This document shows, piece by piece, positions 2,104 to 53,608 of a DNA stretch of 64,000 bases. The stretch is from [Muricauda] lutisoli (nom. illeg.) (GTDB lineage: Bacteria; Bacteroidota; Bacteroidia; Flavobacteriales; Flavobacteriaceae), in contig NZ_JAFLND010000001.1 of assembly GCF_017313105.1 (NCBI RefSeq), forward strand, positions 1,517,600 through 1,581,599, given 5' to 3'. How positions within the stretch are numbered: position 1 is the stretch's first letter; each line of letters starts with the position of its first letter. Under the pieces are notes generated by a model, which was not told where the DNA came from, did no database searches, and saw nothing but the letters and a program-made list of their open reading frames with translations. The position numbers were made by a program, and so were the translations under genes.

Positions 2104-2142
2104 AATATGTAGTTTTGAATTAAATAACTTTTTAAAACAGTA

Positions 2143-2173
2143 CAAAGATATTACATTTGTATAATAAACCAAA
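2143..2173 (-). promoter_or_regulatory. sodA promoter, Bacteroidota type
   Basis: On the minus strand, TTTG (2173-2170) is followed by exactly 19 bp and then TATCTTTG (2150-2143), an exact match to the TTTG-N19-TAnnTTTG consensus. The ATG lies 39 bp downstream. The -33 element falls inside the spacer of the 2161-2192 palindrome. Confidence 0.75.
2152..2159 (+). promoter_or_regulatory. -7 box for the divergent regulator gene
   Basis: TACATTTG matches TAnnTTTG on the plus strand. The expected -33 position, 19 bp upstream (2129-2132), reads TTTT, one base from TTTG. Transcription would start about 25 bp before the ATG at 2191, inside the palindrome. Confidence 0.5.
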
Positions 2174-2192
2174 TATTTACTTTGTTTATTAT
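2161..2192. promoter_or_regulatory. Palindromic operator between sodA and its divergent regulator
   Basis: Perfect 9-bp inverted arms ATAATAAAC (2161-2169) and GTTTATTAT (2184-2192) flank a 14-bp spacer. The element covers the sodA -33 box, the likely transcription start of the regulator and the first two bases of its ATG. A dimeric winged-helix protein bound here would block both promoters. Confidence 0.6.
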
Positions 2193-2823
2193 GAATAATA
2201 GTATTCCAGAAAATGAACGGGCTATTTGGATTCTCAAAAACGAAGGTGAAAAAACCTTGAAAGAATTGGCTCAAACTTTGGGGGTAACCACGGAAGGGGC
2301 CAGATTTCAACTTTTAAAACTGTCCAATGATGGGTATGTTAAATCTGAAAGTAGGGCTAAGGGAAGGGGGCGCCCAAAACAAGTCTGGTCCTTGACCAAA
2401 AAAGGGCATTCCAAATTTCCAGATACCCATTCTGAACTGACACTGAGACTTATCAATAAAATAAAGGAGCATCTTGGAGAGGATACATTGACCGAGCTTA
2501 TAAGTTCCACGGGGCAGGACAATCAACAGCACTATCGCAATGCCATTCCTGAAGAAGCAACTTTGGAAGAAAAAGTTAAAAAATTGGCCGAGTTGCGTAA
2601 AGAAGAGGGGTATATGGCCACGTACGAACAACATGGGAATGGTGACTACCTTTTGATAGAAAACCATTGCCCTATTTGCGCTGCGGCCACCATATGTCAA
2701 GGATTTTGCGACACTGAACTCAATACATTTCAATCGGTATTGGGACCAAATACCAATGTAGAGCGTGTCGATCACATCTTGGCCGGTGCAAGACGCTGTG
2801 CTTATCTAATTCAAGAAAAGTAA
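2191..2823 (+). CDS. Winged-helix regulator with C-terminal Cys cluster (SufR-like)
   Basis: A 210-residue transcription factor. Residues 10-75 form a winged helix ([23 protein letters not shown], then the basic wing [10 protein letters not shown]). The C-terminal part carries C160, C163, C168, C172 and C203 in [15 protein letters not shown] and ARRCAYLI, the layout of SufR-type regulators that sense Fe-S cluster status. I chose the ATG at 2191 over the upstream TTG (2182), because the TTG lies inside the operator and adds only three residues. It is divergent from sodA and probably represses sodA and itself while its cluster is intact, but this is inference. Another Fe-S or metal ligand set is possible. 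Confidence 0.8.
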
Positions 2824-37746: not shown

Positions 37747-37900
37747 GATGGGTTAGTTGGTTAATTTTCTCAAAGATAGCAGGAATGGTGATTAACTGTC
37801 GTACCCATTTTACAGAAAGATTTACCTTTTTTACGGATAATGACTCTGACCAACAGGTAACTATTGTTTTGGTTGATTGTTTTGGGTACATTGTGGTGAT

Positions 37901-38803
37901 ATGAGCGAGATCATCAACTTAGAGACCGTAAACGATTACTGTAATCGATTCAACCAAATCTCACAACATCCTTTGGTGAGTGTGATGAACCTGCACAATT
38001 TGAAAAGAAATTCGCAAAAGGGCATTGAAGCGCTCCGTTTCAATTTTTATGGAATATTCTTAAAACAGAACCCGGATTGTATTCTAAAATACGGCAGAAA
38101 GTATTATGACTTTCAAGAGGGTACTTTGGTATTCATAGGTCCTGGACAAATTGTCCAGATTGAAAACGGTGATGACTATGTTCCATCCGGTTATGCCTTA
38201 TTGTTTCACCCTGATTTACTGCGAAAAACCAATTTGGGTGAAATTATTTCCAAATATTCCTTCTTTTCCTATGAGTTGAGCGAGGCATTGCACCTATCTC
38301 AAAAAGAACGAGAAATTATTATTGATTGTATTGAGAAAATACGATTTGAACTGGAACGGGATATAGACAAGCATAGCAAAGAGCTCATTGTATCCAATAT
38401 AGAACTTTTTCTACGTTATTGCTCACGCTTTTACGACCGTCAATTTATTACCCGCGATGTCGTGAACGATAGTGTGGTCCATCAATTCAAAAGGTCGCTC
38501 CACCATTACCTCTATTCAGGAAAGGCCAGCGAGCAGGGCTGCCCATCTGTAGGACATTTTGCCCAGGAACAATATTTGTCCGCCAACTATTTTGGTGATC
38601 TTATTAAAAAAGAGACAGGAAAAAGTGCGCTCGAAATCATTCAGGCCAAACTTATCGAGGTCGCAAAAGAACGTATTTTCGATCCCTCGAAAACTGTTAG
38701 CGAAATTGCCTATGAACTTGGCTTTAAACATCCCCAACACTTCTCCCGTTTATTCAAGAGCAAGGTGGGCTACTCTCCCAACGAATATAGAATGATGAAC
38801 TAA
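37901..38803 (+). CDS. AraC-family transcriptional regulator
   Basis: A 300-residue regulator from the ATG at 37901 (MSEIINLETVNDY); the TTG at 37877 adds only eight unlikely residues. The N-terminal cupin-type sensor includes YYDFQEGTLVFIGPGQIVQIENG. The C-terminal AraC domain ends with VSEIAYELGFKHPQHFSRLFKSKVGYSPNEYR, a very standard second helix-turn-helix. It is divergent from the barrel-protein gene, with 154 bp between the two ATGs, and is the best candidate regulator for that gene. Its ligand is unknown. Confidence 0.9.
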   Translation: MSEIINLETVNDYCNRFNQISQHPLVSVMNLHNLKRNSQKGIEALRFNFYGIFLKQNPDCILKYGRKYYDFQEGTLVFIGPGQIVQIENGDDYVPSGYALLFHPDLLRKTNLGEIISKYSFFSYELSEALHLSQKEREIIIDCIEKIRFELERDIDKHSKELIVSNIELFLRYCSRFYDRQFITRDVVNDSVVHQFKRSLHHYLYSGKASEQGCPSVGHFAQEQYLSANYFGDLIKKETGKSALEIIQAKLIEVAKERIFDPSKTVSEIAYELGFKHPQHFSRLFKSKVGYSPNEYRMMN

Positions 38804-38960
38804 CATCAGCATCTTTCATACTCTCCTTATTCAAACTTTTACACAGAGATAAAATAGATCGAAGTAAAAAGGACCAAGGTTAAGTTCATGCTCAGCTATG
38901 GGTTTATCGTAGTCCTTCTTATTCCATAAAATTTCTTCAGATACTGATAAATGTCATTAA

Positions 38961-39042: not shown

Positions 39043-39414
39043 ATGGACACCAATCAAATCAAGACCAAATTCGAGCAGGCTGATCAGTTTCTTGAGGCAG
39101 CCCAAAGTGAGTTAAATCGACCAGCAGAAGATGTAGTACCCTATATGGTATGCAGAAGCGCCCGAAAATCTATTTCTCATTACTTAAACGGGTTTTTGTT
39201 AAAACATGGGGTTGAATCCAATGAGGATGATACCGTGGAAATATTGTTGAACAAATGCCAAACCATTAACAGTGAATTCAACAGTTTTGATTTGAGTCCC
39301 ATAACATTCACGATGGATGAGGAATACAGTGCAGAATTCGACAAGATGAAAAGCTGCATTGATTTGGCCGCCTATACCAAACAATTGGTCGGAGTTACAA
39401 ATTCAAAATTTTGA
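39043..39414 (+). CDS. Small helical protein, HEPN-like
   Basis: A 123-residue protein from the ATG at 39043 (MDTNQIKTKFEQADQFLEAAQSEL); the open frame before it reads as non-coding. The pattern of long helices with SARKSISHYLNGFLLKHG resembles HEPN-domain proteins, which often bind nucleotides or RNA, but the RNase R-x4-6-H motif is not clear. It lies 40 bp before the large PFOR gene on the same strand and is probably co-transcribed. A regulatory or assembly role is guesswork. Confidence 0.6.
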   Translation: MDTNQIKTKFEQADQFLEAAQSELNRPAEDVVPYMVCRSARKSISHYLNGFLLKHGVESNEDDTVEILLNKCQTINSEFNSFDLSPITFTMDEEYSAEFDKMKSCIDLAAYTKQLVGVTNSKF

Positions 39415-39454
39415 AAGCATACCTATTAATTAGTACAACATTAATCCTCATATT

Positions 39455-42400
39455 ATGAGCAAGTCAGTTTTGCAGAAAATTGGAGTACCCAAAAACATCA
39501 CAAAAGGCAAAGAGAAGAAATCATCCAAATTCAAATACCCTGGAAAACCAGTAGCAATGGACGGAAATACCGCCGCAATTATGTGCGAGCGCGAATCTAC
39601 CGATGCTGCTGGCGCATTCCCCATTACACCCTCTACGCAAATGGGGGAATACTGGGCCGATGCAGCTGCTAAGGGACATTTGAATATTTCGGACAAACCT
39701 TTGATATTTATTGAACCGGAAGGGGAACACGCCGCTGCTGCAGTTACCGCTGGCTTGTCCATGACCGGTTTGCGTGCTGCAAACTTTTCTTCCGGGCAGG
39801 GTATTGCCTACATGCACGAATCCCTTTATGCCGCAGTGGGTAAACGCCTTACCTATGTACTGAACATCGGTGCACGTGCCATGACCAAATCCACATTGAA
39901 CGTTCATGCCGGGCACGATGATTATCATGCTATTGACGATACTGGCTTTTTTCAAATGTTTGCCAAGAAGGCGCAACATGTGGCCGACCTTAACATTATT
40001 GCCCACCGCATTGCCGAATTGGCGCTGACTCCAGGTATTATCGCACAAGATGGGTTTTTGACCACACATTTGATCGAATCCTTCCTTTTGCCCGAACGTG
40101 AATTGATCAAAGAGTATCTGGGCCGTCCAGACGACATCATCAAAACACCAACACCTGCACAACGCATCATTTATGGTGATACGCGTAGACGTATTCCCGA
40201 ATTATGGGATGTGGATAACCCTGTGATGGCCGGTATTGTACAAAATCAGGATTCTTACATGCAAAGTGTTGCTGCCCAACGTCCATTTTTCTTTGACCAT
40301 ATTAAGGAGTTGGCAGATCAGGCGTTCAAAGAATACTACGAACTCACCGGAAGACACTATCAACGAGTAATGACCTATCGAGCAGAAGATGCCGATTACC
40401 TTATTTTAGGTCAGGGAAGTTTGGTTCCCAGTGCAGAAGTTGTTGTGGATTACTTACGCGAAACCAGAGGAATAAAAGTAGGTGTGGTCGACCTTGTTAT
40501 GTTTAGGCCATTCCCTTCCGATATGCTCGGAGAAATTTTAAAAGGTAAAAAAGCCGTGACTATTTTGGAAAGATTGGACCAACCATTGGCCGTCGACTCC
40601 CCAATTACACGAGAAGTACGCTCTGTTTTAAACAAGTGCGTTGAAAATGGCAGGGATAAAAAACACAAAGCCTATCCAGAGTTGAGTTCCTATTCCATAT
40701 CCGATATGCCCGCAATTTACTCGGGTTCCTTTGGTATGGGTAGCCGCGACTTACAACCGGAAGGCATCATAGGAGCAGTAGAAAATATGTTGCCCGATGG
40801 TAAACACAAAAAACAATTTTATCTCTCCATAGACTTTATCCGACAAATACCACATTCCCCCAAGCAAAAAGCATATCAGGAAAGTATCCAAGAATCCTAT
40901 CCACTTGTTAAGGAACTGGGCATTAGGGGCTCGGAAAACCCCAACCTTATGCCAAAAGACGCCATCACGGTACGCTTTCATTCCATTGGTGGCTGGGGTG
41001 CAATCACTACGGGTAAAAACCTCGCCATGACCCTATATGAGTTATTGGGGTACAATATTAAGGCCAATCCTAAATATGGTTCGGAGAAGAAAGGACAGCC
41101 CACAACATATTATCTCGCAGCCTCTTCGGAGCCCATCCGAATAAATTGCGAATACTACTTTGTGGATGTTGTATTATCCCCGGATCCCAATGTATTTAAA
41201 CATACCAACGCATTGGCCGGTCTTAAAAAGGGAGGGAATTTTATTATCCAGAGCGATAAACAAACACCTGATGAAGTTTGGGCGGATATTCCTGAACGCT
41301 ATCAAAAAATCATTATAGATAATGATATTCATGTGTTCTATATCGATGGATTTAAAATTGCGAGGGAAGAAGCCACCGACCCCGAACTACAACTACGTAT
41401 GCAGGGAATTGCCTTCCAAGGAGCATTTTTTGCCGCATCGCCCTTAATGAAGAAATCAGGGTTATCCGAAGAAAAATTATTGAAAGCCATTGAGGACCAA
41501 TTGCAACATAAATTTGGATCTAAGGGCCAACGTGTGGTGGATGATAATATGCGTGTGGTAAAACGTGGCTTTGATGAAGTTCATGAAATCACCAATAAAG
41601 TTTTGGGAGCAGGCAACAAGACCAATGGTGCTGTAAAAGAACCCCTTCCCATCCCAAGAATGATGAAGGAAATTCCACAAAGTGAATCACAGTTGAGCGA
41701 TATCCATCGTTTTTGGGAACAAACAGGTAATTTCTATCTGCAGGGAATGGGGAATGATAACCTCACCGATCCATTTATAGGCTTGAGTGTAATGCCAGCC
41801 GTTTCCTCCGTATTCCGAAATATGACCGGTATACGTTTCGAGCACCCTGAATGGGTACCAAACAATTGTACCGCATGCGGAAACTGCTACACGATATGTC
41901 CCGATACCGCAATACCCGGACTGGTAAGTGAAGTATCCGATGTTTTCGACACTATAGTGAAACGTGTAAAAAACAACCACGGTAAAGTTGAGCATTTGCC
42001 CAAAGCGGTCCGTAAAATGGAAGGGCATGTCAGAAAATTGTTTGCAGGTTCAAAAAACGGAGCAACCGTCAATGACTATATGCAGCATGCCATAGACATG
42101 ACGCTCGATGAGCTGGGCAATGGCAAGGAATTGACCCAAGAACTCGATTGGTTCAAAGAAGAGTTGGGCGAATTCAATTTCGCTTTAACCCGCCCCTACT
42201 ACGACCTACATGAGAAAAAAGAAGAAAATAGTGGCGGATTGTTCAGTATAACCATCAACCCGAACACATGTAAGGGATGCATGGAATGTGTTGCTGTTTG
42301 TAATGATGATGCTTTGATCAAAATACCACAGACCGAAGGGTCCATCGCCAAACTGAACAAAGAATGGGATTTTTGGCTAGATCTACCCAACACACCGCAA

Positions 42401-44425
42401 AAATTCAATCGAATCGATGATCTTGAAGAAAAAATAGGTCCACTGGAAACAATTCTATTGAACAAAGATGCCTACCTGAATTTTGCCAGTGGCGATGGAG
42501 CCTGTTTAGGCTGTTCCGAAAAATCGGTGGTACATATTTTCACGGCCACCGTGGAATCCCTCATGCAACCGCGTATAGAAAAACACATGGCCTATCTGGA
42601 AGAATTGACCAACAAATTGGAAAGACATATCCAAGGAAAATTGATGGACCGTGTGAATTTGACCGATTCGGAGGCCATGTCCAAAATAGTTTCCGAAATG
42701 AAAAATTCAGATTTGACCATGTCGGAGATTACCAGAAGGTTGGAATCTAAAAATGGAGGTGAACCCATTGATCAGGAATGGTTGCGCAATGTTACCCAAT
42801 TACTCGCTCAACTGAACAAACTTAAATGGAAATATACCAACGGAACCACCGGAAAAGGAAGGTCCAATATGGGTATCCTCAATTCCACTGGTTGTTCTTC
42901 GGTATGGGGAAGTACTTGGCCATTCAACCCTTATCCATTCCCTTGGGCCAACCACTTGTTCCAAGACTCACCTTCCATGGCGATGGGTGTTTTTGAAGGA
43001 CATATGGCCAAAATGGCCGATGGTTTCAAGACCATACGCAAAGCAGAATTGGAGCTCGAAGGGAAATACAATGCCGACGAACATGACGATTTCTTCACCT
43101 ATTTTACTTGGAAACAATTTACAGATGAAGAATGGTTGCTATGTCCTCCAGTGGTAACACTAGGCGGTGACGGTGCCATGTACGATATCGGTTTCCAAAA
43201 CTTATCAAGAATGATGGCTTCCGGCAAACCGATCAAAGTAATCGTACTTGATACACAGGTATATTCCAACACAGGTGGACAAGCCTGTACTTCTGGATTT
43301 ATTGGTCAAGTTTCCGATATGGCCCAATATGGTAAAGTATGGAAAGGTAAAAGTGAGCCTCGAAAAGAGATTGGTCTCATTGCCATGGCACACAGAAACA
43401 CTTATGTAATGCAAGCCACTTTGGCCAACACAAGTCAAATGATAGAAGGATTTATCGATGGCTTGATGACCAAGCGACCAGCTATTTTTAACCTGTACAC
43501 CACCTGCCAACCCGAACATGGTGTAGGTGATGACAAAGGGGCAAATCAAGCTAAACTTGCAGTAGAATCCAGGGCTTATCCTATATTCAAATACAATCCC
43601 GATCATGGAATAAAAGCCCGGGAAGCATTTGATTTAGCAGGCAACCCTGCCATGGATCAAATCTGGCCAACTTATAACTTAAAATATCTCGAATACGGTC
43701 AGGAACGCACCATGGAACTACCGATGACGTTTGCCGACTTTGCATTGACCGAGGCACGTTTCAGGAAACATTTCAGAAAAGTACCACGCAGCGCCTGGAA
43801 CGATAATATGATGCCCCTGGCAGAATTTTTAGAAATGGAAGAAAACGAACGTGAAGGCAAATTCCCTTATATCTGGGCAGTTGATAGAAATCAGAAACTT
43901 AATCGGGTATTGGTCGCAAAAGCCATTGTGGAGTCTTGCGAAGAACGTAGGGATTTCTGGCTGATGCTACGCGATATTGCCGGAGTGGAACCAGAAAAAC
44001 CACAAGAAGAAAACCTCGAAGAAAAAATAAGAAACGAGGTTGTCGGAAATATTGCACAGGGACTTATGCAACTTGCTGGTGGTAATGGGAATGGAAACGA
44101 TCTGTTAACAATGGCATTGGAAAAACCAGTTGAGAGCAATGGAGTTGCAGTAGAAGAACCATCATCAAATGGGGAATATATGGCCCCATGGCTGGAAACT
44201 GACGAATGCAGTTCCTGTGATGAGTGCATCAAGCTCAACCCCAACATTTTTGCTTATAACGAGGATAACAAAGCTTACATCAAAAATCCGAAGGCCGGAC
44301 CGTATGAAGACTTGGTCAAAGCAGCGGAAAAATGTACTGCAGGAGTGATTCATCCCGGATTACCTGCCGAACGATCTGCAAAAGATATGGAGAAATGGAT
44401 AAGTCGAGCTGAAAAGTATAATTAA
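39455..44425 (+). CDS. Single-chain pyruvate:ferredoxin oxidoreductase with extra ferredoxin domain
   Basis: A 1656-residue 2-oxoacid:ferredoxin oxidoreductase, some 450 residues longer than common single-chain PFORs. Order: alpha domain (about 30-260, AFPITPSTQMGEYWADAA; SSGQGIAYMHESLYAAVGKRLTY), domain II (about 265-450), gamma/CoA domain (about 500-700, VRFHSIGGWGAITTGKNLA), two [4Fe-4S] sites at C805/808/811/815 and C939/942/945/949, then the TPP domain with proximal-cluster cysteines C1017, C1020, C1147 and C1351 and the GGDGAMYDIGFQNL plus NTGGQ motif. A C-terminal single-cluster ferredoxin (C1585, C1588, C1591, C1627) is added. It would decarboxylate pyruvate to acetyl-CoA and reduce ferredoxin. 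It is followed 11 bp later by rnfC. Another 2-oxoacid could be the substrate. Confidence 0.9.
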   Translation: MSKSVLQKIGVPKNITKGKEKKSSKFKYPGKPVAMDGNTAAIMCERESTDAAGAFPITPSTQMGEYWADAAAKGHLNISDKPLIFIEPEGEHAAAAVTAGLSMTGLRAANFSSGQGIAYMHESLYAAVGKRLTYVLNIGARAMTKSTLNVHAGHDDYHAIDDTGFFQMFAKKAQHVADLNIIAHRIAELALTPGIIAQDGFLTTHLIESFLLPERELIKEYLGRPDDIIKTPTPAQRIIYGDTRRRIPELWDVDNPVMAGIVQNQDSYMQSVAAQRPFFFDHIKELADQAFKEYYELTGRHYQRVMTYRAEDADYLILGQGSLVPSAEVVVDYLRETRGIKVGVVDLVMFRPFPSDMLGEILKGKKAVTILERLDQPLAVDSPITREVRSVLNKCVENGRDKKHKAYPELSSYSISDMPAIYSGSFGMGSRDLQPEGIIGAVENMLPDGKHKKQFYLSIDFIRQIPHSPKQKAYQESIQESYPLVKELGIRGSENPNLMPKDAITVRFHSIGGWGAITTGKNLAMTLYELLGYNIKANPKYGSEKKGQPTTYYLAASSEPIRINCEYYFVDVVLSPDPNVFKHTNALAGLKKGGNFIIQSDKQTPDEVWADIPERYQKIIIDNDIHVFYIDGFKIAREEATDPELQLRMQGIAFQGAFFAASPLMKKSGLSEEKLLKAIEDQLQHKFGSKGQRVVDDNMRVVKRGFDEVHEITNKVLGAGNKTNGAVKEPLPIPRMMKEIPQSESQLSDIHRFWEQTGNFYLQGMGNDNLTDPFIGLSVMPAVSSVFRNMTGIRFEHPEWVPNNCTACGNCYTICPDTAIPGLVSEVSDVFDTIVKRVKNNHGKVEHLPKAVRKMEGHVRKLFAGSKNGATVNDYMQHAIDMTLDELGNGKELTQELDWFKEELGEFNFALTRPYYDLHEKKEENSGGLFSITINPNTCKGCMECVAVCNDDALIKIPQTEGSIAKLNKEWDFWLDLPNTPQKFNRIDDLEEKIGPLETILLNKDAYLNFASGDGACLGCSEKSVVHIFTATVESLMQPRIEKHMAYLEELTNKLERHIQGKLMDRVNLTDSEAMSKIVSEMKNSDLTMSEITRRLESKNGGEPIDQEWLRNVTQLLAQLNKLKWKYTNGTTGKGRSNMGILNSTGCSSVWGSTWPFNPYPFPWANHLFQDSPSMAMGVFEGHMAKMADGFKTIRKAELELEGKYNADEHDDFFTYFTWKQFTDEEWLLCPPVVTLGGDGAMYDIGFQNLSRMMASGKPIKVIVLDTQVYSNTGGQACTSGFIGQVSDMAQYGKVWKGKSEPRKEIGLIAMAHRNTYVMQATLANTSQMIEGFIDGLMTKRPAIFNLYTTCQPEHGVGDDKGANQAKLAVESRAYPIFKYNPDHGIKAREAFDLAGNPAMDQIWPTYNLKYLEYGQERTMELPMTFADFALTEARFRKHFRKVPRSAWNDNMMPLAEFLEMEENEREGKFPYIWAVDRNQKLNRVLVAKAIVESCEERRDFWLMLRDIAGVEPEKPQEENLEEKIRNEVVGNIAQGLMQLAGGNGNGNDLLTMALEKPVESNGVAVEEPSSNGEYMAPWLETDECSSCDECIKLNPNIFAYNEDNKAYIKNPKAGPYEDLVKAAEKCTAGVIHPGLPAERSAKDMEKWISRAEKYN

Positions 44426-44436
44426 TGTAATAAGGC

Positions 44437-45798
44437 ATGATGTCCCTTTTCAATCTTCATAAAGACTCGTTTAAACACGGTATTCACCCTCCGGAGAGTA
44501 AGGACGAGACAAGTGGTTTGCCCATTAGGCAATTTCCATTTGCGCCCCTTATAATTTTACCGATGGCACAACACATTGGTGCTCCTTCGGAAATTGTGGT
44601 GCGAGAAGGTCAGGAAGTGCAACGGGGTCAATTATTGGCCAAGGCAAATGGGTACGTTTCCGTGCCCATGCACGCACCTGTTTCCGGAAAGGTTCGCAAA
44701 ATTGCCAATGTGCCCACTATTTCAGGAAAAATGTCCACCGGTATTTATCTGGAAGCCTTTCCTTTTTCCACCCAAGAGGTTCTCGAAGGAAATCCAATAG
44801 ACCCCGATACGGCCACACCAGAAGAAATTCTGCAAGGAATTCAGGATGCCGGTATTGTGGGATTGGGAGGTGCTGCATTCCCAACACATGTAAAATTAAA
44901 GGTTCCAGAAGGCAAAACATGTGAAACCTTGATCATCAATGGAGTGGAATGTGAACCCTATTTAACCACGGACCATCGGGTAATGTTGGAACAGGAAAGC
45001 GATATTTTTACCGGAATCAAATACTTGTTGAAAGCTACGGGGGCAAAAAAGGCCATCATTGGCATTGAAGCCAACAAACAAGATGCTGCTGACCACTTGT
45101 CGAAACATATGCCCAAAGGATTGCCAGTTGCTGTACAAGTGCTTCCTGTAAAATATCCCCAGGGAGCGGAGAAAATGCTGATCACTGCCATACTGGGCAA
45201 GGAAATACCTTCGGGCAAGCTTCCTATTGAAGCTGGGGCAGTTGTTGTAAACGTGGCAACAACCGCAGAAATCGGCAGATTACTACCACACGGTCGCGGA
45301 ATCCAAGAACGCGTGATCACCATCACGGGACCAGGAGTTAAAAAGAAAGGAAATTATCTAATTCCAGTAGGTACTCCCCTGCGTTTTGTTTTGGAACAAG
45401 TAGGGGTTGACCAAGAAATCAGTGAAGTATATATGGGAGGTCCAATGATGGGTATGGCGGTTTCCAATCTGGACATATCCATTGTAAAAGGTACTTCGGG
45501 CATTTTAGTGTTCACAAAAAAAGATGTGAACCGGTCAACAACAATATATCCATGTATTAAATGTGGTGCCTGTGTCGATGCTTGTCCAATATTGTTGAAT
45601 CCATCAAAGTTGGGAATATTGGCAAAATTCGAAGCCTATGACGAAATGGCCTCCGATTACAATTTGATGGATTGTTTTGAATGCGGGTCGTGCACCTATG
45701 TGTGTCCTTCCCATATTCCCTTGGTCCAATATTTTAGATCGGCAAAACGGATAGTTCGAAAGCGGGAAGCAGATAAAAAAGAGAAAGTACATGCTTAG
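44437..45798 (+). CDS. rnfC: Rnf electron transport complex subunit C
   Basis: A 453-residue peripheral subunit that handles NAD(H) in the ion-pumping ferredoxin:NAD oxidoreductase. The N-terminal barrel-sandwich domain (HPPESKDETSGLPIR; SVPMHAPVSGKVRKI) is followed by the Rossmann-like FMN/NADH region (GIVGLGGAAFPTHVKL, NGVECEPYLTTDHRVMLE). Two [4Fe-4S] sites follow: C373/376/379/383 and C413/416/419/423. Length is typical of Bacteroidota RnfC and it lacks the long Ala/Lys tail of enterobacterial forms. It overlaps rnfD by 8 bp, so the two are translationally coupled. Confidence 0.95.
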   Translation: MMSLFNLHKDSFKHGIHPPESKDETSGLPIRQFPFAPLIILPMAQHIGAPSEIVVREGQEVQRGQLLAKANGYVSVPMHAPVSGKVRKIANVPTISGKMSTGIYLEAFPFSTQEVLEGNPIDPDTATPEEILQGIQDAGIVGLGGAAFPTHVKLKVPEGKTCETLIINGVECEPYLTTDHRVMLEQESDIFTGIKYLLKATGAKKAIIGIEANKQDAADHLSKHMPKGLPVAVQVLPVKYPQGAEKMLITAILGKEIPSGKLPIEAGAVVVNVATTAEIGRLLPHGRGIQERVITITGPGVKKKGNYLIPVGTPLRFVLEQVGVDQEISEVYMGGPMMGMAVSNLDISIVKGTSGILVFTKKDVNRSTTIYPCIKCGACVDACPILLNPSKLGILAKFEAYDEMASDYNLMDCFECGSCTYVCPSHIPLVQYFRSAKRIVRKREADKKEKVHA

Positions 45799-46810
45799 AA
45801 AAACCTTAAATATTAGCACATCGCCCCATATCAATAGTGGGAGGAGCACCGAACAGATCATGAAAAATGTGGTTTGGGCCTTGTTGCCCGTTGTATTTTT
45901 CTCTATCTATTCCTTTGGGTTGAATGCTTTGCTGGTCATTGGGACTGCAACCTTCGCCAGTGTGCTTACCGAACATGTGCTTTGCAAACTTTCAAAGAAA
46001 AAGACCACTGTTGGTGATTATTCAGCGGTTATTACTGGACTGTTATTAGGGCTCACCTTGCCTCCAAGTTTTCCATTATGGATGGCTTTTATAGGTGGAA
46101 TCATCGGAATCGCCCTTGGTAAATATATTTTCGGTGGATTGGGATATAATGTGTTCAATCCGGCACTCGTGGCAAGGGCTGTTTTACAAGCCGCTTTTCC
46201 TGTCGCCATTACCACTTGGCATCCCGCTTTTCTGACCGATCGTTTTTCAACCGTAGCAAGTTCGGTATTCACATGGCCCTTCATGGAGCCAAAATTTGAT
46301 GTGATCTCCGGGGCGACTCCCTTGTCAGCATTTAAGTTTGATGGAGTAACAACTTCAACTGTAGAACTGGCCTTGGGTCAAATTAGTGGTTCGGCAGGAG
46401 AGACCAGTGCTGTGATCATCATTATAGGGGGGCTTTATTTGATTGCACGGAATATGATGAATTGGAGAATACCGGCGGCCATATTATTAAGTGCATTTGT
46501 ATTGAGTGGTGTACTTTTTTTGATCAATAGTGAAATATATCCATCACCTTGGTTTATGCTGTTTTCCGGCGGGTTGATGCTAGGTGCGGTATTTATGGCC
46601 ACAGACATGGTCTCCTCCCCTATTACACCGCTCGGTTTATGGGTTTACGGGGCAATCATTGGCATTTTGACCATTGTGATACGAGTTTGGGGTGGTTTAT
46701 CCGAAGGAGTCATGTATTCCATACTATTGGCCAATGCCATTTCTCCGCATATTGATTCGGTCATCAAAAACAGAGTGTACGGAACCAAAAGAAAAATGAA
46801 AGCCGCATGA
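45791..46810 (+). CDS. rnfD: Rnf electron transport complex subunit D
   Basis: A 339-residue integral membrane subunit with about 9-10 hydrophobic helices. The covalent FMN site is visible as SGATPL, with T176 as the expected attachment residue for the flavin transferase ApbE, which is not encoded in this window. PSPWFMLFSGGLMLGAVFMATDMVSSPITPLG is the conserved C-terminal region. Its start overlaps the end of rnfC, and its stop overlaps rnfG in an ATGA. Confidence 0.95.
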   Translation: MLRKTLNISTSPHINSGRSTEQIMKNVVWALLPVVFFSIYSFGLNALLVIGTATFASVLTEHVLCKLSKKKTTVGDYSAVITGLLLGLTLPPSFPLWMAFIGGIIGIALGKYIFGGLGYNVFNPALVARAVLQAAFPVAITTWHPAFLTDRFSTVASSVFTWPFMEPKFDVISGATPLSAFKFDGVTTSTVELALGQISGSAGETSAVIIIIGGLYLIARNMMNWRIPAAILLSAFVLSGVLFLINSEIYPSPWFMLFSGGLMLGAVFMATDMVSSPITPLGLWVYGAIIGILTIVIRVWGGLSEGVMYSILLANAISPHIDSVIKNRVYGTKRKMKAA

Positions 46811-47508
46811 GTGAAGTCTCCAACATAGCGATGCAAAATCCTGCGAACAGTAAAAAAATGCTACTGGCCATGGTGGGTATAGGTATCATAAGTGCTTTTC
46901 TTATTGTGTTGACATATGAATTGACCCTTCCCCGTGTTCAGCGATTAAAGGCCGAGGCATTGGAAAAAGCAATTTTCGAAGTGCTTCCCGGAACAGATCA
47001 TACACAGGCCTTTGGACTGAACACTGATGGGACATTATTTAAAATCGAAGAAGGAGATAAATCTGAAGCAGCTCTCTATGCAGGATATGACAAAGATGAT
47101 AAACTGGTAGGCTATGCAGTGGAAGCTGCAGGTCAGGGTTATGCGGATATTATCAGAATTATCTACGGCTACGACCCTAATGAACAAATATTGATTGGGT
47201 TTCAGGTATTGGAAAGTAAGGAAACCCCTGGACTTGGAGATAAAATTGAAAAGGATGAAGCCTTTCTCAACAATTTTAAAGCACTGGATGTCAGCGTTTC
47301 CAACGATGGACAGCTACAAAACAAGGTTGTTACCGTAAAACAAGGTGAAAAGCAAAATGCTTGGGAAATTGACGGAATCACTGGAGCCACAATTTCCTCG
47401 CGGGCCATCGGGGATATCATTGGCAAAAGTACTATGGAAGTTGTTCCTATTCTCCATCAAAATTGTAAAAAGGACCAACATAAAATGGATAGCAATGAGC
47501 AACGATAA
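46807..47508 (+). CDS. rnfG: Rnf electron transport complex subunit G
   Basis: A 233-residue subunit with one N-terminal membrane helix (LLAMVGIGIISAFLIVLTYEL) and a periplasmic FMN-binding domain. GYAVEAAGQGYADIIRIIYGYDPNEQILIGFQVLESKETPGLGDKI is the family signature. The covalent flavin motif reads DGITGATISS (residues 189-198), so position 197 is Ser where the usual SGATxT motif has Thr. The last 14 bases overlap rnfE. Confidence 0.93.
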   Translation: MSEVSNIAMQNPANSKKMLLAMVGIGIISAFLIVLTYELTLPRVQRLKAEALEKAIFEVLPGTDHTQAFGLNTDGTLFKIEEGDKSEAALYAGYDKDDKLVGYAVEAAGQGYADIIRIIYGYDPNEQILIGFQVLESKETPGLGDKIEKDEAFLNNFKALDVSVSNDGQLQNKVVTVKQGEKQNAWEIDGITGATISSRAIGDIIGKSTMEVVPILHQNCKKDQHKMDSNEQR

Positions 47509-48127
47509 TTCAACATCAAAGCAAAAGGTCACCTCAACCGATGAGTTTATTAAAGGGTTGTGGCGTGACAATCCCGTATTTGTGCAAGTATTGGGAATGT
47601 GTCCGGTTCTGGCAGTTTCCAATACAGCAGAAAATGCACTTGCCATGGGGTTGGCCACAGCTTTTGTGCTATTGATGTCGAATATTTTGGTCTCGCTTTT
47701 ACGAAATTTTGTTCCCAAACAGGTGCGTATTGCATCATATATACTCATCATCGCCACATTTGTTACCGTAACCGATTATGCGATTCAGGCAATTAGTGTT
47801 GAGCTTCACAAGAGTTTGGGAGCGTTTATCTCACTTATAGTGGTCAACTGCCTGATATTGAGTCGAGCCGAGGCCTTTGCATCGAAAAATACGATAGGAC
47901 GATCTATCCTTGATGCATTGGGTATGGGGTTCGGATTTACGCTCGCCCTTTTTTGCTTGGGGGCCGTAAGGGAAATACTTGGCAATGGTTCAATTTTTAA
48001 TGTTCCACTTTTTTCCGAAGGTTATCAAAGTTGGATTGTGATGATATTACCTGCCGGGGGATTTTTCACCTTGGCACTTTGGTTACTTATAATTAATGCA
48101 CTACAAACAAGAAAAGTAAAATCATGA
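47495..48127 (+). CDS. rnfE: Rnf electron transport complex subunit E
   Basis: A 210-residue six-helix membrane subunit. The start is the ATG at 47495 (MSNDNSTSKQ), giving a 14-bp overlap with rnfG; the open frame upstream simply mirrors rnfG. NPVFVQVLGMCPVLAVSNTAENALAMGLA holds the conserved cysteine that, with its RnfA counterpart, binds the intramembrane iron site in Rnf and Nqr. The C-terminal region FGFTLALFCLGAVREILGNGSIF is canonical. It ends in an ATGA overlap with rnfA. Confidence 0.93.
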   Translation: MSNDNSTSKQKVTSTDEFIKGLWRDNPVFVQVLGMCPVLAVSNTAENALAMGLATAFVLLMSNILVSLLRNFVPKQVRIASYILIIATFVTVTDYAIQAISVELHKSLGAFISLIVVNCLILSRAEAFASKNTIGRSILDALGMGFGFTLALFCLGAVREILGNGSIFNVPLFSEGYQSWIVMILPAGGFFTLALWLLIINALQTRKVKS

Positions 48128-48705
48128 ATACAGAGTCCTTAGGTTCGATTTTTCTCAATGCCGCCTTGGTCAACAACTTTGTTTTGGCCTATTTCTTGGG
48201 TATTTGTCCATTTTTGGGGGTATCCGGAAAAATGGAAACTGCTACAAAAATGGGTGGTGCCGTAATGTTTGTAATGCTCATCAGTTCCATGAGCGCCTAC
48301 GGTATTCACGCATTTCTGGTAAGTATCGATGCTCCGTTCCTTCAATTGATCAGTTACATTGTAGTGATTGCTTCAACGGTACAGTTAGTGGAAATGTTCA
48401 TCAAAAAAATTAGTCCGGCGCTGTTTAAATCATTGGGGATTTTTCTCCCATTGATCACAACAAATTGTGCCATACTTGGAGTGGCCTTGTTTCAGACCAG
48501 TAAAGGATATGGGTTTTTAGAAAGTGTAATCTATTCTTTGGGTGCCGGAGCAGGATTTATGCTCGCACTGGTATTGATTGCCGGTATAAGGGAACAAATG
48601 AATTTTGCGGATGTGCCCAATATTTCCAAAGGAACAGCACTTACATTGTTCATAGCGGGAATTTTATCACTCTGCTTCATGGGCTTTGCAGGACTGGGCG
48701 CTTAA
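48124..48705 (+). CDS. rnfA: Rnf electron transport complex subunit A
   Basis: A 193-residue six-helix membrane subunit, homologous to NqrE. YFLGICPFLGVSGKMETATKMGGAVMFVMLISS and FLPLITTNCAILGVALFQTSKGY carry the two conserved cysteines of the intramembrane iron centre. GAGAGFMLALVLIAGIREQMNFADVP is the typical C-terminal section. Length is normal. It lies 16 bp before a small Cys-rich membrane protein gene, not the usual end of the rnf operon. Confidence 0.94.
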   Translation: MNTESLGSIFLNAALVNNFVLAYFLGICPFLGVSGKMETATKMGGAVMFVMLISSMSAYGIHAFLVSIDAPFLQLISYIVVIASTVQLVEMFIKKISPALFKSLGIFLPLITTNCAILGVALFQTSKGYGFLESVIYSLGAGAGFMLALVLIAGIREQMNFADVPNISKGTALTLFIAGILSLCFMGFAGLGA

Positions 48706-48721
48706 AAAAAATAAAGAAAGG

Positions 48722-48931
48722 ATGATTAAATCACTCATTATAGGAATTGGCTTAACCGTAACCATTGTATTGGCATGGGCACTTGTACAAACCCTGTGGA
48801 AAAAAACATTTCGGGAAGAATATTCGGAAGACGATGTTCTGGCCGGACGCAGAAGTTGCTCTAATTGTGGATGTACGGGCTTCTGCGAGAGAAAGGAAGT
48901 AACTAAAAAGGATACAAAAAATGTCCTTTAG
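48722..48931 (+). CDS. 69-residue Cys-rich single-helix membrane protein, NqrM-like in layout
   Basis: One N-terminal membrane helix (IKSLIIGIGLTVTIVLAWALVQTLW) is followed by an acidic linker and the cluster C46-x2-C49-x-C51-x3-C55 (SCSNCGCTGFCERK), then a Lys-rich tail. The layout (one helix plus four close cysteines) resembles NqrM, the factor needed to deliver iron to the NqrD/NqrE site, and also FeoB-associated Cys-rich proteins. Its place right after rnfA suggests a role in inserting iron between RnfA and RnfE. That is inference from layout and neighbours, as sequence identity to NqrM is not obvious. Confidence 0.75.
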   Translation: MIKSLIIGIGLTVTIVLAWALVQTLWKKTFREEYSEDDVLAGRRSCSNCGCTGFCERKEVTKKDTKNVL

Positions 48932-48976
48932 GGAAGAAAATCAATTAAAAAAATATAACATATACAATTTAAGAAC

Positions 48977-49834
48977 ATGGCACATTTATCTGATTTTGAT
49001 ACCGAAAAACGGTATAAGGCGGTCGTAAAAAATACAGTGCGGTTAACGCCACCCGACACCGATGAAGTGCGTGAGATCGTACTTGAAGTAAAAGATTCGC
49101 AATTTGAATGCGAAGTGGACCAAAGCTTTGGCGTATTGACCGAATCCACGGGAGAATTTGGAAACGAGCTTCACCATAGGTTATATAGTATAGCTGATTT
49201 GCCCAAGCATGCCAACGGAAACCCACAACTAACTATGTTAGTAAAACGCTGCTCCTATGTGGATGAATTCAGCGGTGAAAAATACGAGGGTATTTCTTCC
49301 AACTATTTATGTGATAGAAAAAAAGGTGATGAAATTACCGTTACAGGTCCATTTCAAATACCCTTTAGGGTACCCGAGGACAAGACAGCCAATCTTATAC
49401 TCATTGGTATGGGTACTGGAATTGCACCATTCAGGGCTTTTATTAAGCATATATATAAAAATGTAAAGGATTGGAAAGGAAAAATCCGGTTGTTCTACGG
49501 TGCGCGTAGTGGCTTGGAGCTGCTTTACCTCAACGATAAGGATGGTGACCTTACCAATTATTACGATGAGGAAACATTCGAAGCTTTTCATGCATTGAGT
49601 CCAAGGCCATATTGGGCCGATCCCATTGAATTGGAGAAGGCCCTCGAAGGACAGACCAAAGAACTGAAAGAATTGCTTTCCATGTCCAATACATACATCT
49701 ACGTTGCCGGATATGAAAAAATCCTTGACAAACTCAACAAGGCATTTTCCAAAATCTTAGGTTCGGAAGAGGCATGGCGACTCCGAAAAGCTGAATTGAT
49801 TGCCGGTAGAAAGTGGGCCGAAATTATTTTTTGA
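48977..49834 (+). CDS. Ferredoxin-NADP reductase-type flavoprotein
   Basis: A 285-residue plant-type ferredoxin-NADP(+) reductase fold. RLYSIA (about residue 75) binds FAD, LILIGMGTGIAPFRAF is the NADP-pyrophosphate loop, LFYGARSGLELLY follows the cofactor, YIYVAGYEK is the next motif, and the chain ends WAEIIF, where many relatives have a terminal Tyr or Trp. It would move electrons between ferredoxin and NADP(H). Its place inside the rnf cluster, between the Cys-rich gene and rnfB, means reduced ferredoxin from the PFOR could feed either NADPH or, through Rnf, NADH. Confidence 0.9.
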   Translation: MAHLSDFDTEKRYKAVVKNTVRLTPPDTDEVREIVLEVKDSQFECEVDQSFGVLTESTGEFGNELHHRLYSIADLPKHANGNPQLTMLVKRCSYVDEFSGEKYEGISSNYLCDRKKGDEITVTGPFQIPFRVPEDKTANLILIGMGTGIAPFRAFIKHIYKNVKDWKGKIRLFYGARSGLELLYLNDKDGDLTNYYDEETFEAFHALSPRPYWADPIELEKALEGQTKELKELLSMSNTYIYVAGYEKILDKLNKAFSKILGSEEAWRLRKAELIAGRKWAEIIF

Positions 49835-49886
49835 CCTGCACCGGGAAAAAGAAGAACCGTAATTGTAAACAAATTCGTGAATCATT

Positions 49887-50753
49887 ATGTCTATCGTTAT
49901 CGCAGTGGCCGCACTTGGAGGGTTAACCTTACTTCTTGCAATTATGCTGATCGTTGCAAACAAAAAGCTATTTGTATATGAGGACCCACGTATAGATAAA
50001 GTGGAGGACATGTTGCCCCATGCCAATTGCGGAGCTTGTGGCTTTCCTGGCTGTAGGCCCTTTGCAGAGGCATTGGTTCACGGGCGTGCCTTACCCGGAA
50101 AATGTACGGTAAGCACAGATGAAGGCCGACAAGCCATTGCTGATTTTCTTGGGGTCGATATGGGTGCGGAAGAAAAAAAAGTCGCTCGTCTTGCTTGTGC
50201 CGGTGGGACCAATGTGGCCATAAACCGGGCCCAATATGTGGGTATTGAAAGTTGCCAAGCCGCAGCTTTGGTATCCGGTGGTGGCAAAGGTTGTTTTTGG
50301 GGGTGTCTTGGCCATGGCGATTGTGAGGTTGTCTGCGATTTTGATGCCATTACCATGAACGAACATGGATTACCCATTGTGGACCAGGATAAATGTACGG
50401 CCTGTGGCGACTGCGTGGAAGCTTGCCCCAAAGATTTATTTTCCCTTCAACCTATAAGCCATCATCTTTGGGTAGCTTGTAAAAATCTTGAACACGGCGA
50501 AGCTGTTCTCGAAGATTGTCAAGTAGGATGTACCGCCTGTGGAAAGTGTGCCATGGATGCCCCGGGCGATCTAATAACAATCAAGAATAATTTACCAGTG
50601 GTGAATTACACTAAAAATCATAATACCCAAGTACCGATTCAGCGATGTCCTACCGGAGCCATTGTTTGGTTCAATGATGATGGGGAGCCCATCAAAGGGA
50701 AAGAAAGCAAGAAAATTATCCGTAAGGGCAGTAGATCTTTGGGAAATACTTAG
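49887..50753 (+). CDS. rnfB: Rnf electron transport complex subunit B
   Basis: A 288-residue ferredoxin-type subunit, the electron entry point of Rnf. An N-terminal helix (IVIAVAALGGLTLLLAIMLIVA) anchors it. The Fe-S domain has C48-GA-C51-GFPG-C56 and C73, then a run of further cysteines (SCQAAALVSGGGKGCFWGCLGHGDCEVVC). A typical [4Fe-4S] ferredoxin motif CTACGDCVEACP and a second CQVGCTACGKC with a downstream CPTGAIVW follow. It lies at the far end of the cluster, separated from rnfC by six genes, unlike the common rnfBCDGEA order. Confidence 0.94.
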   Translation: MSIVIAVAALGGLTLLLAIMLIVANKKLFVYEDPRIDKVEDMLPHANCGACGFPGCRPFAEALVHGRALPGKCTVSTDEGRQAIADFLGVDMGAEEKKVARLACAGGTNVAINRAQYVGIESCQAAALVSGGGKGCFWGCLGHGDCEVVCDFDAITMNEHGLPIVDQDKCTACGDCVEACPKDLFSLQPISHHLWVACKNLEHGEAVLEDCQVGCTACGKCAMDAPGDLITIKNNLPVVNYTKNHNTQVPIQRCPTGAIVWFNDDGEPIKGKESKKIIRKGSRSLGNT

Positions 50754-50863
50754 TCTGCTTGAAAAGGAAAAAACAACGCCTGATCTGAAGTTGCTAAAGT
50801 TTAAAAACCTAAGTATATTATAGGTAATGATCATCATTGATCTAATTTCAAAATAAAAGACAT

Positions 50864-51256
50864 ATGAGCTATTATTTTAGTACAACATTAAAGGAGAAAA
50901 ATTTCGAAAAAGCTATCGAAAAGGTAACTGTCGAATTGAAAAATGAGGGATTTGGAATACTTACTGAAATAAACATTAACCAAACCCTAAAGGACAAACT
51001 AGGTGTAGATTTTAAAAAATACAGAATCCTTGGGGCCTGTAACCCACCTTATGCTCATGAAGCATTGACCCAAGAAGAAAAAATCGGGCTCTTTTTGCCC
51101 TGTAATGTGGTTGTCCTGGAAAATGACAATGGCGAAATTGAGGTGGCCGCGGTGGACCCTGTTGCTTCGATGATGGCGGTAAAAAATGAGAAGTTGGCCC
51201 CCGTTGCCCAAGAAATACAACAAAAGCTTAAAAATGTGATCGAAAAACTTTCTTGA
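50864..51256 (+). CDS. DUF302 family protein
   Basis: A 130-residue protein of the DUF302 family. The N-terminal MSYYFSTTLKEKNFEKAIEKVTVELKNEGFGILTEI and the central YRILGACNPPYAHEALTQEEKIGLFLPCNVVVLE are diagnostic, with two cysteines that may bind a ligand. Residues after 90 (VDPVASMMAVKNEKLAPVAQEIQQKL) complete the domain. It is the last gene on this strand of the cluster, 110 bp after rnfB. The family's biochemical role is not known; some members lie near sulfur or metal genes. Confidence 0.92.
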   Translation: MSYYFSTTLKEKNFEKAIEKVTVELKNEGFGILTEININQTLKDKLGVDFKKYRILGACNPPYAHEALTQEEKIGLFLPCNVVVLENDNGEIEVAAVDPVASMMAVKNEKLAPVAQEIQQKLKNVIEKLS

Positions 51257-51369: not shown

Positions 51370-53553
51370 TTAAACTTCATATTTCAACAGTCTCAAAGCA
51401 TTTAATACCACCAACACAGTGGACCCTTCATGGCCGACCACTGCAGGACCTATGGCAACCGTTCCGGTGATGGTCAATGGAACCAAAACAGCCACCATCC
51501 CCAAACTGATCACCAAATTTTGTTTGATTATTCGTTTTGCTTTTCGACTTAGCCCGATGGCAAATGGAAGAACGTTCAATTTATCCGACATCAAAGCGAT
51601 GTCCGCTGTTTCCAATGCAACATCCGAACCTGCTGCTCCCATAGCTATCCCCACAGTGCTTTTTGCCATAGCAGGGGCATCGTTGACACCATCTCCGACC
51701 ATTGCCACACTGCCTTCTTCTTTGGTCATTTTCTCAATGGCCTTCACTTTATCTTCTGGAAGTAGACTTCCCATTGGGTCCGTAATACCCAGATTTTTGG
51801 CAATTGCATCCGCAACCCTTTGATTATCCCCCGTTAGCATGATTATTCGTTTGATGCCTGTTTTCCTCAAGGAAGAAAGCACGGTGATAGCATCCGGACG
51901 GGCAACATCCATTACCGAGATGATGCCTAGATATTCCTTTCCCTTATGAACGATCATCGCAGTATGCCCCCCGGATTCCAATTCGAACATTTTTTGGTCT
52001 ATCTCTTTGGGTACCGAGTTCCCCGTCAACTCCTCGAAAAGTCTTCGATTACCCACATGAACCACATCTCCATCCCAATCGGCCTTGATACCCCTTGCAA
52101 CCAAGGCCTGTAAGTTCTCGGCCATAGGGATATCCTCACCTCCCAATTCCTTTTTTCCACCTTCAACAATGGCAATGGCCAAGGGATGGTCACTTAGTGC
52201 TTCTACCGCAATTGCAGCCGACAAGAGGTGTGTTTTGTCGGTTCTTCCAAATGGTATGGCATGGGTAAGTACAGGCCTACCTTCGGTAAGAGTCCCTGTT
52301 TTGTCAAAAGCAATGGCGCTCAGTCCACCCAAATCTTCAAGGGGACGGCCACCTTTAATGAGCACTCCCTGGCGTGCAGCCCTAGCTATCCCAGCCAATA
52401 CTGCACTTGGAGTGGAAATGGCCAAGGCACACGGTGATGCGGCAATCAATACGGACATGGCCCTATAAAAACTCTCCTTAAACGTTTCCTCAACAATTAA
52501 AAATGCAAACAATAAGAATAGCACCAGAGCTAAAACAGAGGGCACATAATATTTCTCAAATTTATCGGCCAAGTGTTGGGTCGGGGACTTTTGCGTTTCA
52601 GCTTCTTTTACCAATGTGATCAAACGGGAAAGGGTACTGTCCTTAGCTTCTTTCAACACTTTAACTTCGAGTACGCCGTTTCCGTTGATCGTACCTGAGA
52701 AGACCCTGTGTTCGGGCAAAAGTTTATTAATGTCCGTGGTACTTTGCCAATTGGGGCTTGCCCGCTTGTCCACAGGCACACTTTCGCCTGTTATGGATGC
52801 TTGGTTCACAGGGCTTGTTCCTTTTGAAACCACACCATCGGCAGCAATTTTTGAATTTGGCCTGACCACTATTATATCACCGACCCTTAATTTCTCGATA
52901 GGAACTTCTATCAGTTTGCCATTCCTTTTTACCATGGCCAACGGGGGTGCCAGATCGGAAAGTGCGGCAATGGACTTTTGAGCCCGACTCATGGCGTATT
53001 GTTCCAAGGCATTCCCCAGGCTGAACAAAAAGAGTAATAAGGCGGCTTCGCCCCATTTGCCCAAAAAAGCGGCGCCAACGGCTGCAAAAATCATAAGGAA
53101 GTCTATTTCAAACTTGCCCCTGAGCAGGTCTTTAACAGCATTGGACGTGGTAAAAATACTTCCGAAGACTGCCCCAACAACAAAAAGATACGTGGAATAA
53201 TCTTCCGGTATGGACGCTATAAATGAAAAAATAAGTCCCACTCCCCAAAATAAACCGCTTACAATGGCGAAATAGAGGTCTGCGTTGTTCTGTCTAAAAT
53301 GAAAAGGATAAGGACCATCGTCATTCTTATGAGGCGCATCATTCTGTATGTGAACAATCTTTAAGCCCATCCTTCTGATTTTTTTAATGATCAAAGATGG
53401 GTCCGTCTGATTTTCATCCCATTCCAATCGTATTTTGCCGGAAGCAGATACGGCCACTTGATGAACACCCTGCTGTTTTTCAAGTATCTGTTCAATCCTT
53501 CTGGCATTCCTGGAGTGATGGATTTTTTCAAGTTCAATGATTATTTTATTCAT
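51370..53553 (-). CDS. Heavy-metal P-type ATPase, P1B-4-like
   Basis: A 727-residue metal-exporting P-type ATPase from the ATG at 53553 (MNKIIIELEK). The N-terminal HMA-like domain lacks the CxxC metal site (KIHHSRNARRIEQILEKQQG). TGES is in the actuator domain, DKTGTLTEGRP the phosphorylation loop, and GDGVNDAPA the hinge. The membrane motif is SPCALAISTP rather than CPC, and the last helix has HEGSTVLVVLNALRLL. SPC plus HEGxT is the pattern of the P1B-4 group, which exports Co, Zn or Fe(II). It is convergent with the rnf cluster; metal specificity is inferred only. Confidence 0.9.
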   Translation of the reverse strand: MNKIIIELEKIHHSRNARRIEQILEKQQGVHQVAVSASGKIRLEWDENQTDPSLIIKKIRRMGLKIVHIQNDAPHKNDDGPYPFHFRQNNADLYFAIVSGLFWGVGLIFSFIASIPEDYSTYLFVVGAVFGSIFTTSNAVKDLLRGKFEIDFLMIFAAVGAAFLGKWGEAALLLFLFSLGNALEQYAMSRAQKSIAALSDLAPPLAMVKRNGKLIEVPIEKLRVGDIIVVRPNSKIAADGVVSKGTSPVNQASITGESVPVDKRASPNWQSTTDINKLLPEHRVFSGTINGNGVLEVKVLKEAKDSTLSRLITLVKEAETQKSPTQHLADKFEKYYVPSVLALVLFLLFAFLIVEETFKESFYRAMSVLIAASPCALAISTPSAVLAGIARAARQGVLIKGGRPLEDLGGLSAIAFDKTGTLTEGRPVLTHAIPFGRTDKTHLLSAAIAVEALSDHPLAIAIVEGGKKELGGEDIPMAENLQALVARGIKADWDGDVVHVGNRRLFEELTGNSVPKEIDQKMFELESGGHTAMIVHKGKEYLGIISVMDVARPDAITVLSSLRKTGIKRIIMLTGDNQRVADAIAKNLGITDPMGSLLPEDKVKAIEKMTKEEGSVAMVGDGVNDAPAMAKSTVGIAMGAAGSDVALETADIALMSDKLNVLPFAIGLSRKAKRIIKQNLVISLGMVAVLVPLTITGTVAIGPAVVGHEGSTVLVVLNALRLLKYEV

Positions 53554-53608
53554 GACAGACCAATAAACATGCATCCATTGCAATTAAACAAAATTGACAA
53601 GTTATGCT

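Follow-up and report, generated by a model that had tools for sequence, protein, structure and literature searches.

What would an apparently aerobic flavobacterium do with a pyruvate:ferredoxin oxidoreductase (PFOR) joined to an Rnf ion pump? Both are familiar chiefly from anaerobes. The question is raised by a 64,000-nucleotide stretch of the 3.42 Mb genome of [Muricauda] lutisoli (G000:C1:1517600-1581599, hereafter the window), whose PFOR has its nearest named relatives in Allomuricauda and Flagellimonas. A preliminary description of the window had proposed a linked electron-transfer cluster of PFOR, Rnf and a ferredoxin-NADP reductase (FNR). We found that all of the genes it named are present on the + strand, and that the arrangement is not private to this genome, since a near-identical set occurs as a block in seven phyla. 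We lean, with moderate confidence, towards reading this module as a low-oxygen pyruvate:NAD+ oxidoreductase system that would pump ions.

Gene content and order of the module

All 11 open reading frames (ORFs) between 39043 and 51256 lie on the + strand; the preliminary description had the shared strand right and gave their number as ten. The module proper spans 39043-50753 and runs from a HEPN-like gene through PFOR, rnfC-D-G-E-A, a small protein with a cysteine motif (hereafter the Cys protein) and FNR to rnfB. Its genes are spaced as closely as had been described: from the HEPN-like gene through rnfB, neighbours overlap by at most 14 bp and stand at most 52 bp apart (the rnfE start is taken at 47495, and junction lengths depend on that choice).

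The six Rnf subunits all exceed their NCBIfam subfamily cut-offs: rnfC (44437-45798; TIGR01945, 500 bits against 246), rnfD (45791-46810; TIGR01946, 318 against 207), rnfG (46807-47508; TIGR01947, 103 against 102), rnfE (47495-48127; TIGR01948, 242 against 213), rnfA (48124-48705; TIGR01943, 233 against 229) and rnfB (49887-50753, 288 aa; TIGR01944, 100 against 69), the last at the far end behind FNR, as first described. RnfD carries SGAT at residue 173 and RnfG carries TGATIS at residue 192, which we take to be flavin mononucleotide (FMN)-site motifs, and cysteines of RnfE (36 and 119) and RnfA (28 and 115) are presumably ligands of the membrane cluster. We placed this pump relative to Na+-translocating NADH:quinone oxidoreductase (NQR) with a tree of RnfD, RnfE and RnfA, built by a quick method with a midpoint root, SH-aLRT supports and no bootstrap (64 rows: 31 of 61 module rows, being every second one plus the window, all 19 other Rnf and all 14 NQR). 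Module Rnf forms a single clade among Rnf (SH-aLRT 100), with the 14 NQR rows apart (SH-aLRT 100). The closest other Rnf sets on the tree (L056, L059, L140, L146 and L185) adjoin divergent PFOR or korA/korB-like genes, and one of them, L185 in genome G202, holds korA-korB-kor814-rnfB-PFOR-like-rnfCDGEA in one row.

The PFOR (39455-44425, 1656 aa) contains the Pfam domains POR_N, POR, PFOR_II and TPP_enzyme_C, two CxxCxxCxxxC motifs (residues 805-815 and 939-949) and, in its last ~78 residues, a single-cluster ferredoxin domain with cysteines at 1585, 1588, 1591 and 1627. This C-terminal domain matches ferredoxin I of Desulfovibrio africanus (1dax, E 5e-5). Residues T58, E91, R141 and N1272 align, the first three by eye, with the catalytic residues Thr31, Glu64, Arg114 and Asn996 of Desulfovibrio PFOR; all four are invariant across 18 Bacteroidota-type sequences.

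The Cys protein (48722-48931, 69 aa) consists of a hydrophobic, membrane-type helix followed by CxxCxCxxxC and matches no Pfam family. Among the 56 loci in which both rnfA and FNR were found, a profile detected it in 49, and five of the seven misses show a hydrophobic helix and cysteines in the same gap by eye; the remaining two (L056 and L076) have no candidate in the rnfA-FNR gap. A separate, pattern-picked set of members has CxxCxCx(2-4)C in 43 of 49. The NqrM profile aligns with the family across the Cys motif alone (hhalign probability 71, E 3.6e-5). We considered assigning the protein to Pfam NqrM and dropped the assignment for want of a match, retaining the weak resemblance: the window protein has no Pfam match to NqrM (PF04400), and NqrM is absent from the 25 listed of the 29 Pfam families that match the 35-member family. 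A search for NqrM itself gave matches in 2 of 24 module genomes and none in 39 related genomes, where the control was equally silent.

Conservation and distribution

A PFOR scan of the genome collection returned at least 563 relatives; our locus counts use the best 80 of these (64-98% PFOR identity), of which 56 have room for the module, with at least 7.6 kb downstream of PFOR. The preliminary description listed a lack of joint conservation among the results that would count against it; the genes do keep together across relatives. PFOR is followed by rnfC-D-G-E-A in order in 55/56 loci with room and FNR is present in 54/56, the exceptions being L072 (no FNR found) and L075 (rnfC partial only). 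The 80 loci fall, by NCBI phylum, into Bacteroidota (50), Pseudomonadota (16), Planctomycetota (4), Calditrichota (3), Myxococcota (3), Acidobacteriota (2) and Verrucomicrobiota (1), with one unplaced; many are metagenome bins, and some may be mis-sorted. Because the same gene order recurs in other phyla, a chance arrangement is excluded.

Within its own lineage the module is scarce. Seven of 71 same-genus genomes have a PFOR match at E < 1e-200, split in one of them into two pieces, and so do 7 of 397 Flavobacteriaceae; both figures include the own genome. Among 395 sampled Bacteroidota, more distant PFORs are common; the module type occurs in two, including the own genome, each with module rnfC adjacent. 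On the PFOR tree, the enzyme of Methylotuvimicrobium buryatense sits among those of a Cyclobacteriaceae group (SH-aLRT 100), a placement that implies that the cassette was transferred. In its distribution the module behaves like a cassette that is patchily spread and has moved horizontally. rnfB lies downstream in 37 of the 56 loci with room, upstream in 18 and was not found in one, and on the PFOR tree (81 rows, rnfB place known for 63) its place switches once, pointing to a single move of rnfB.

Cultured carriers include M. buryatense, Allomuricauda profundi and Algoriphagus kandeliae. Two bins stand apart: a Rickettsiales bin (L046) places beside Marinoscillum on the tree and may be mis-sorted, and in Myxococcales bin5 the PFOR and partial rnfC (L075) lie ~1 Mb from an rnfE/rnfA-type pair (G056:C1:501031-502226), so that the module may be split. 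Among the matches listed for the open-access literature, as far as their excerpts go, none describes a PFOR-Rnf-FNR module.

Upstream pattern and candidate regulator

We searched the 259 bp ahead of each module's first gene for a shared operator, using as controls 207 other upstream regions from the same loci, which rest on our own ORF picks. The pattern TGA-N6-TCA precedes the module in 44/49 Bacteroidota loci compared with 30/207 controls, and the stricter TGAY-N4-RTCA in 39/49 compared with 13/207. Shuffled sequences averaged 3.6 of 49, with a maximum of 10. Where sites are paired, they lie 22 bp apart in fifteen cases, 23 bp in three and 82 bp in one. In the window, the putative CRP/FNR-type operator TGATAAATGTCATTAA occupies 38945-38960 (+), 98 bp ahead of the first gene. 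Beyond Bacteroidota, the pattern occurs as TTGAGCTTGATCAA in two Halieaceae with rnfB-first modules and is present in one of three PFOR-first and the one HEPN-first Pseudomonadota locus, as well as in the one unplaced locus. This pattern before Bacteroidota modules is a new observation.

Across the own genome, the extended pattern with at most one mismatch has 21 sites, against 10 for a reversed control; two are exact, and one of these is the module's. Nineteen of the 21 were inspected and 12 are intergenic. One site separates a CRP/FNR-family regulator gene from a gene for a ccoI-type ATPase, which is followed by the cbb3 oxidase genes ccoS, fused ccoN-O, ccoP, ccoG and ccoH. This regulator has a CxxC near its start and a CFIP later, which we take to resemble the oxygen-sensing cysteines of the Escherichia coli regulator FNR. 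The regulator FNR has been linked to cbb3 at low oxygen in Rhodocyclaceae, according to an excerpt of PMC8510549. Further operator-like sites precede ompW (G000:C1:590159) and a methionine sulfoxide reductase gene (C1:434934) and lie between a FadL-type porin and a thioredoxin gene (C3:348649); these genes are possible further members of the regulon. The full FNR box TTGA-N6-TCAA occurs once in the window, away from the module, with 2.7 sites expected by chance.

Other pumps and 2-oxoacid enzymes in the same genomes

All 30 module genomes searched hold at least four Rnf-Nqr genes, sufficient for a second pump. Seventeen of them yielded 20 further clusters: 13 NQR, 5 Rnf of the rnfABCDGE order and 2 of a divergent PFOR-linked type. 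The own genome encodes NQR with 6/6 subunits over cut-off, together with the pyruvate dehydrogenase (PDH) subunits E1-alpha (437 against 394 bits) and E2 (454 against 445) and 2-oxoglutarate dehydrogenase (OGDH) E1 (1222 against 764). Since a full NQR and PDH/OGDH are present, the module is an addition and not a substitute. The NQR set of this genome also contains a 122-aa protein (L093:10818-11186) between the nqrF and apbE-like genes; no NqrM was found there, in a search whose control was silent too.

The korB/korA genes of the own genome adjoin a gene for an 814-aa protein (L094:3073-5517; G000:C1 ~21.1-23.5 kb). This protein is 25% identical to PFOR over PFOR residues 1171-1655 and has a similar ferredoxin end; it resembles the C-terminal third of PFOR with a decayed thiamine pyrophosphate (TPP) site. 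It is possibly an accessory subunit of the 2-oxoacid enzyme. Given the similar ferredoxin ends, two 2-oxoacid oxidoreductases of one cell seem to share an electron-exit part.

Predicted function and alternatives

From the gene content and its conserved order, the separate Rnf clade, the domains, the catalytic residues and the operator pattern, we infer an electron path, its direction, the ion, the roles of the Cys protein and FNR, and the identity and signal of the regulator. The long PFOR would convert pyruvate to acetyl-CoA and CO2. Low-potential electrons would pass from its internal clusters to the fused ferredoxin domain, RnfB, the Rnf membrane core and RnfC and finally to NAD+, with export of Na+ or H+ as they cross Rnf, and the resulting NADH would feed the genome's NQR and respiratory chain. 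The membrane Cys protein may assist in building the RnfA/RnfE iron-sulfur site, in a role like that of NqrM in NQR; NqrM is reported to aid insertion of the NQR membrane cluster in the excerpt of PMC12174285. FNR could provide a further flavin route by which electrons leave or reach ferredoxin, and a CRP/FNR-family regulator would turn the module on at low oxygen jointly with the cbb3 oxidase. Ion pumping from pyruvate in this way is consistent with established Rnf chemistry.

Oxygen poses an apparent paradox that the preliminary description had raised by pointing to superoxide dismutase in the same window, and we located an ORF of that type, by a motif, at 1498-2313 (-). PFOR activity is quickly lost in air, as reported in an excerpt of PMC13252398. 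Expression at low oxygen may resolve the paradox: PFOR would be dispensable in air because PDH is present, and a low-oxygen programme in common with the cbb3 oxidase would account for the operator as well as for this coexistence.

Several observations weigh against this scheme. The PFOR scores 409 bits against the TIGR02176 equivalog cut-off of 911, and as this falls so far short, we count it as a divergent PFOR-like subfamily. Direction is not set by the sequence because Rnf is reversible. The operator pattern was first noticed in the window's own alignment and then tested on other loci, making it post hoc for the window, and the 39/49 are not independent counts because the loci are related. 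The pattern precedes only 4 of 12 rnfB-first Pseudomonadota modules and none of the nine in Calditrichota, Myxococcota, Planctomycetota and Verrucomicrobiota, and was not found at the M. buryatense locus (L063). TGA-N6-TCA fits CRP as well as the regulator FNR, and the regulator adjoining the cbb3 genes, whose best NCBIfam match is Fnr, reaches 113 bits against a cut-off of 228. Lastly, CRP/FNR homologues of Flavobacteriales and Saprospiraceae bins are read as likely carbon sensors in PMC8510549.

The scheme can be extended to a physical assembly in which PFOR docks on Rnf via its fused ferredoxin, giving one membrane pyruvate:NAD+ ion-pump supercomplex, complete with a dedicated maturation protein and flavin subunit. 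We regard this extension as tentative and doubtful.

The best-surviving alternative runs the module backwards. A respiratory ion gradient would push electrons of NADH by way of Rnf onto ferredoxin, and PFOR would fix CO2 onto acetyl-CoA to make pyruvate during growth on two-carbon substrates, or the reduced ferredoxin would serve biosynthesis. Rnf can reverse, and according to an excerpt of PMC12174285 it provides aerobic Azotobacter with the ferredoxin used in nitrogen fixation; moreover, forward oxidation is already covered by the PDH genes. Operators of low-oxygen type, if such they are, nevertheless sit badly with a reaction dependent on a large respiratory gradient, and we consider reversal unlikely.

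A further possibility is that NAD(P)H made by FNR is the main product, for biosynthesis or stress defence, and that Rnf merely balances pools. The reductase (48977-49834, 285 aa) is of plant/cyanobacterial type; it is assigned to the FNR family by sequence, its top structural matches are ferredoxin-NADP reductases, and its retention in nearly all loci with room speaks for this reading. Its nucleotide-specificity segment is atypical, however. The motif that we take to read the NADP 2'-phosphate in plant-type FNR is missing from all 20 rows compared (19 loci and the window), which read S-[PSK]-[RK]-P-x-[WL] there (ALSPRPxW type). FNR reaches no NCBIfam FNR, BoxA or NqrF cut-off and has no 2Fe-2S domain match; its BoxA and PetH scores exceed its NqrF score (58 bits against a cut-off of 295). 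NADPH production, as put forward in the preliminary description, is unsupported because the usual NADP motif is absent, and we judge FNR-centred output to be quite improbable. Slightly more improbable still is a different 2-oxoacid substrate, with the module serving amino-acid or 2-oxoglutarate breakdown: the low equivalog score and the korA/korB-like or divergent PFOR genes beside the near sister Rnf clusters would fit it, but the four catalytic positions are kept and the same genome has a separate korA/korB set.

PFOR and Rnf are here joined as one cassette in bacteria that also have genes enough for another Rnf/NQR-type pump. If the low-oxygen pyruvate:NAD+ reading is right, these bacteria would gain energy from pyruvate at low oxygen by a route that metabolic models would miss. 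PFOR chemistry in a respiring bacterium would then be testable in the cultured carriers. Were the supercomplex to exist, it would represent an anaerobe-type energy device reworked for oxygen-limited respirers and passed between phyla as a block, with extra ion export per pyruvate beyond the capacity of PDH.

Neighbouring genes

The HEPN-like gene (39043-39414, 123 aa) is identified by alignment, its Pfam HEPN score of 19.6 bits lying under the cut-off of 22, and it leads the module in 33 of the 45 Bacteroidota loci whose upstream sequence exceeds 900 bp. We do not claim it as an RNase: RxxxxH, which we take to be the HEPN RNase motif, appears in just 5 of 26 family rows. At the 3' end, a DUF302 gene (50864-51256, +) adjoins the module after a 110-bp gap; it was found at the module in 1 of 80 loci (L013, A. 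profundi), some loci being too short to show it, and should not count as a module member. Directly upstream, an AraC-type regulator gene (37877-38803) has a 98% match in L013 alone of the 80 loci. Downstream, a heavy-metal P-type ATPase gene (51370-53583, -) has strong matches in 6 of 70 same-genus genomes, the own included, which is too few for a clean comparison with empty sites as a test of mobility. Rfam and tRNA scans of the window gave no matches, and promoter-like and terminator-like scans gave no more than chance level.

Comparison with known systems

The module enzyme shares the domain plan and catalytic residues of PFOR/NifJ from D. africanus and Moorella and differs in its length, its fused ferredoxin I-type domain and its long inserts; it is only 25-29% identical to the ordinary Bacteroidota PFOR of ~1200 aa. 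The pump likewise has all six subunits of the Rnf complex (RnfABCDGE), with the FMN-site motifs and the RnfA/RnfE cysteines, and differs in forming its own clade tied to PFOR, the Cys protein and FNR. In place of the common rnfBCDGEA order it has rnfCDGEA...B with FNR inserted. An rnfCDGEAB order has been published for Melioribacter and is compared there, in the excerpted text, to that of Firmicutes (PMC3534657).

Na+-NQR offers a parallel. The series C-D-G-E-A, a membrane Cys protein and an FNR-fold reductase parallels nqrA-B-C-D-E, NqrM and NqrF. The Cys protein, like NqrM, has a hydrophobic helix and then four cysteines, but these are spaced CxxCxCx3C rather than Cx7CxCx3C. In contrast to NQR, the module retains rnfB, its reductase lacks a match to the 2Fe-2S domain, and its RnfC, which exceeds its own cut-off, scores 36 bits with the nqrA model against a cut-off of 321. 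Published models, as excerpted, trace NQR back to a duplicate of rnf from which rnfB disappeared and to which an FNR-family monooxygenase-reductase gene was added (PMC4014512, PMC12174285). The shared gene order prompted us to consider the module as a missing link to NQR, an idea that we dropped in view of the tree: because it sets the module among Rnf and away from NQR, the module is not a direct NQR intermediate. The module also bears on how FNR-type and NqrM-like parts became attached to the Rnf/NQR pump family.

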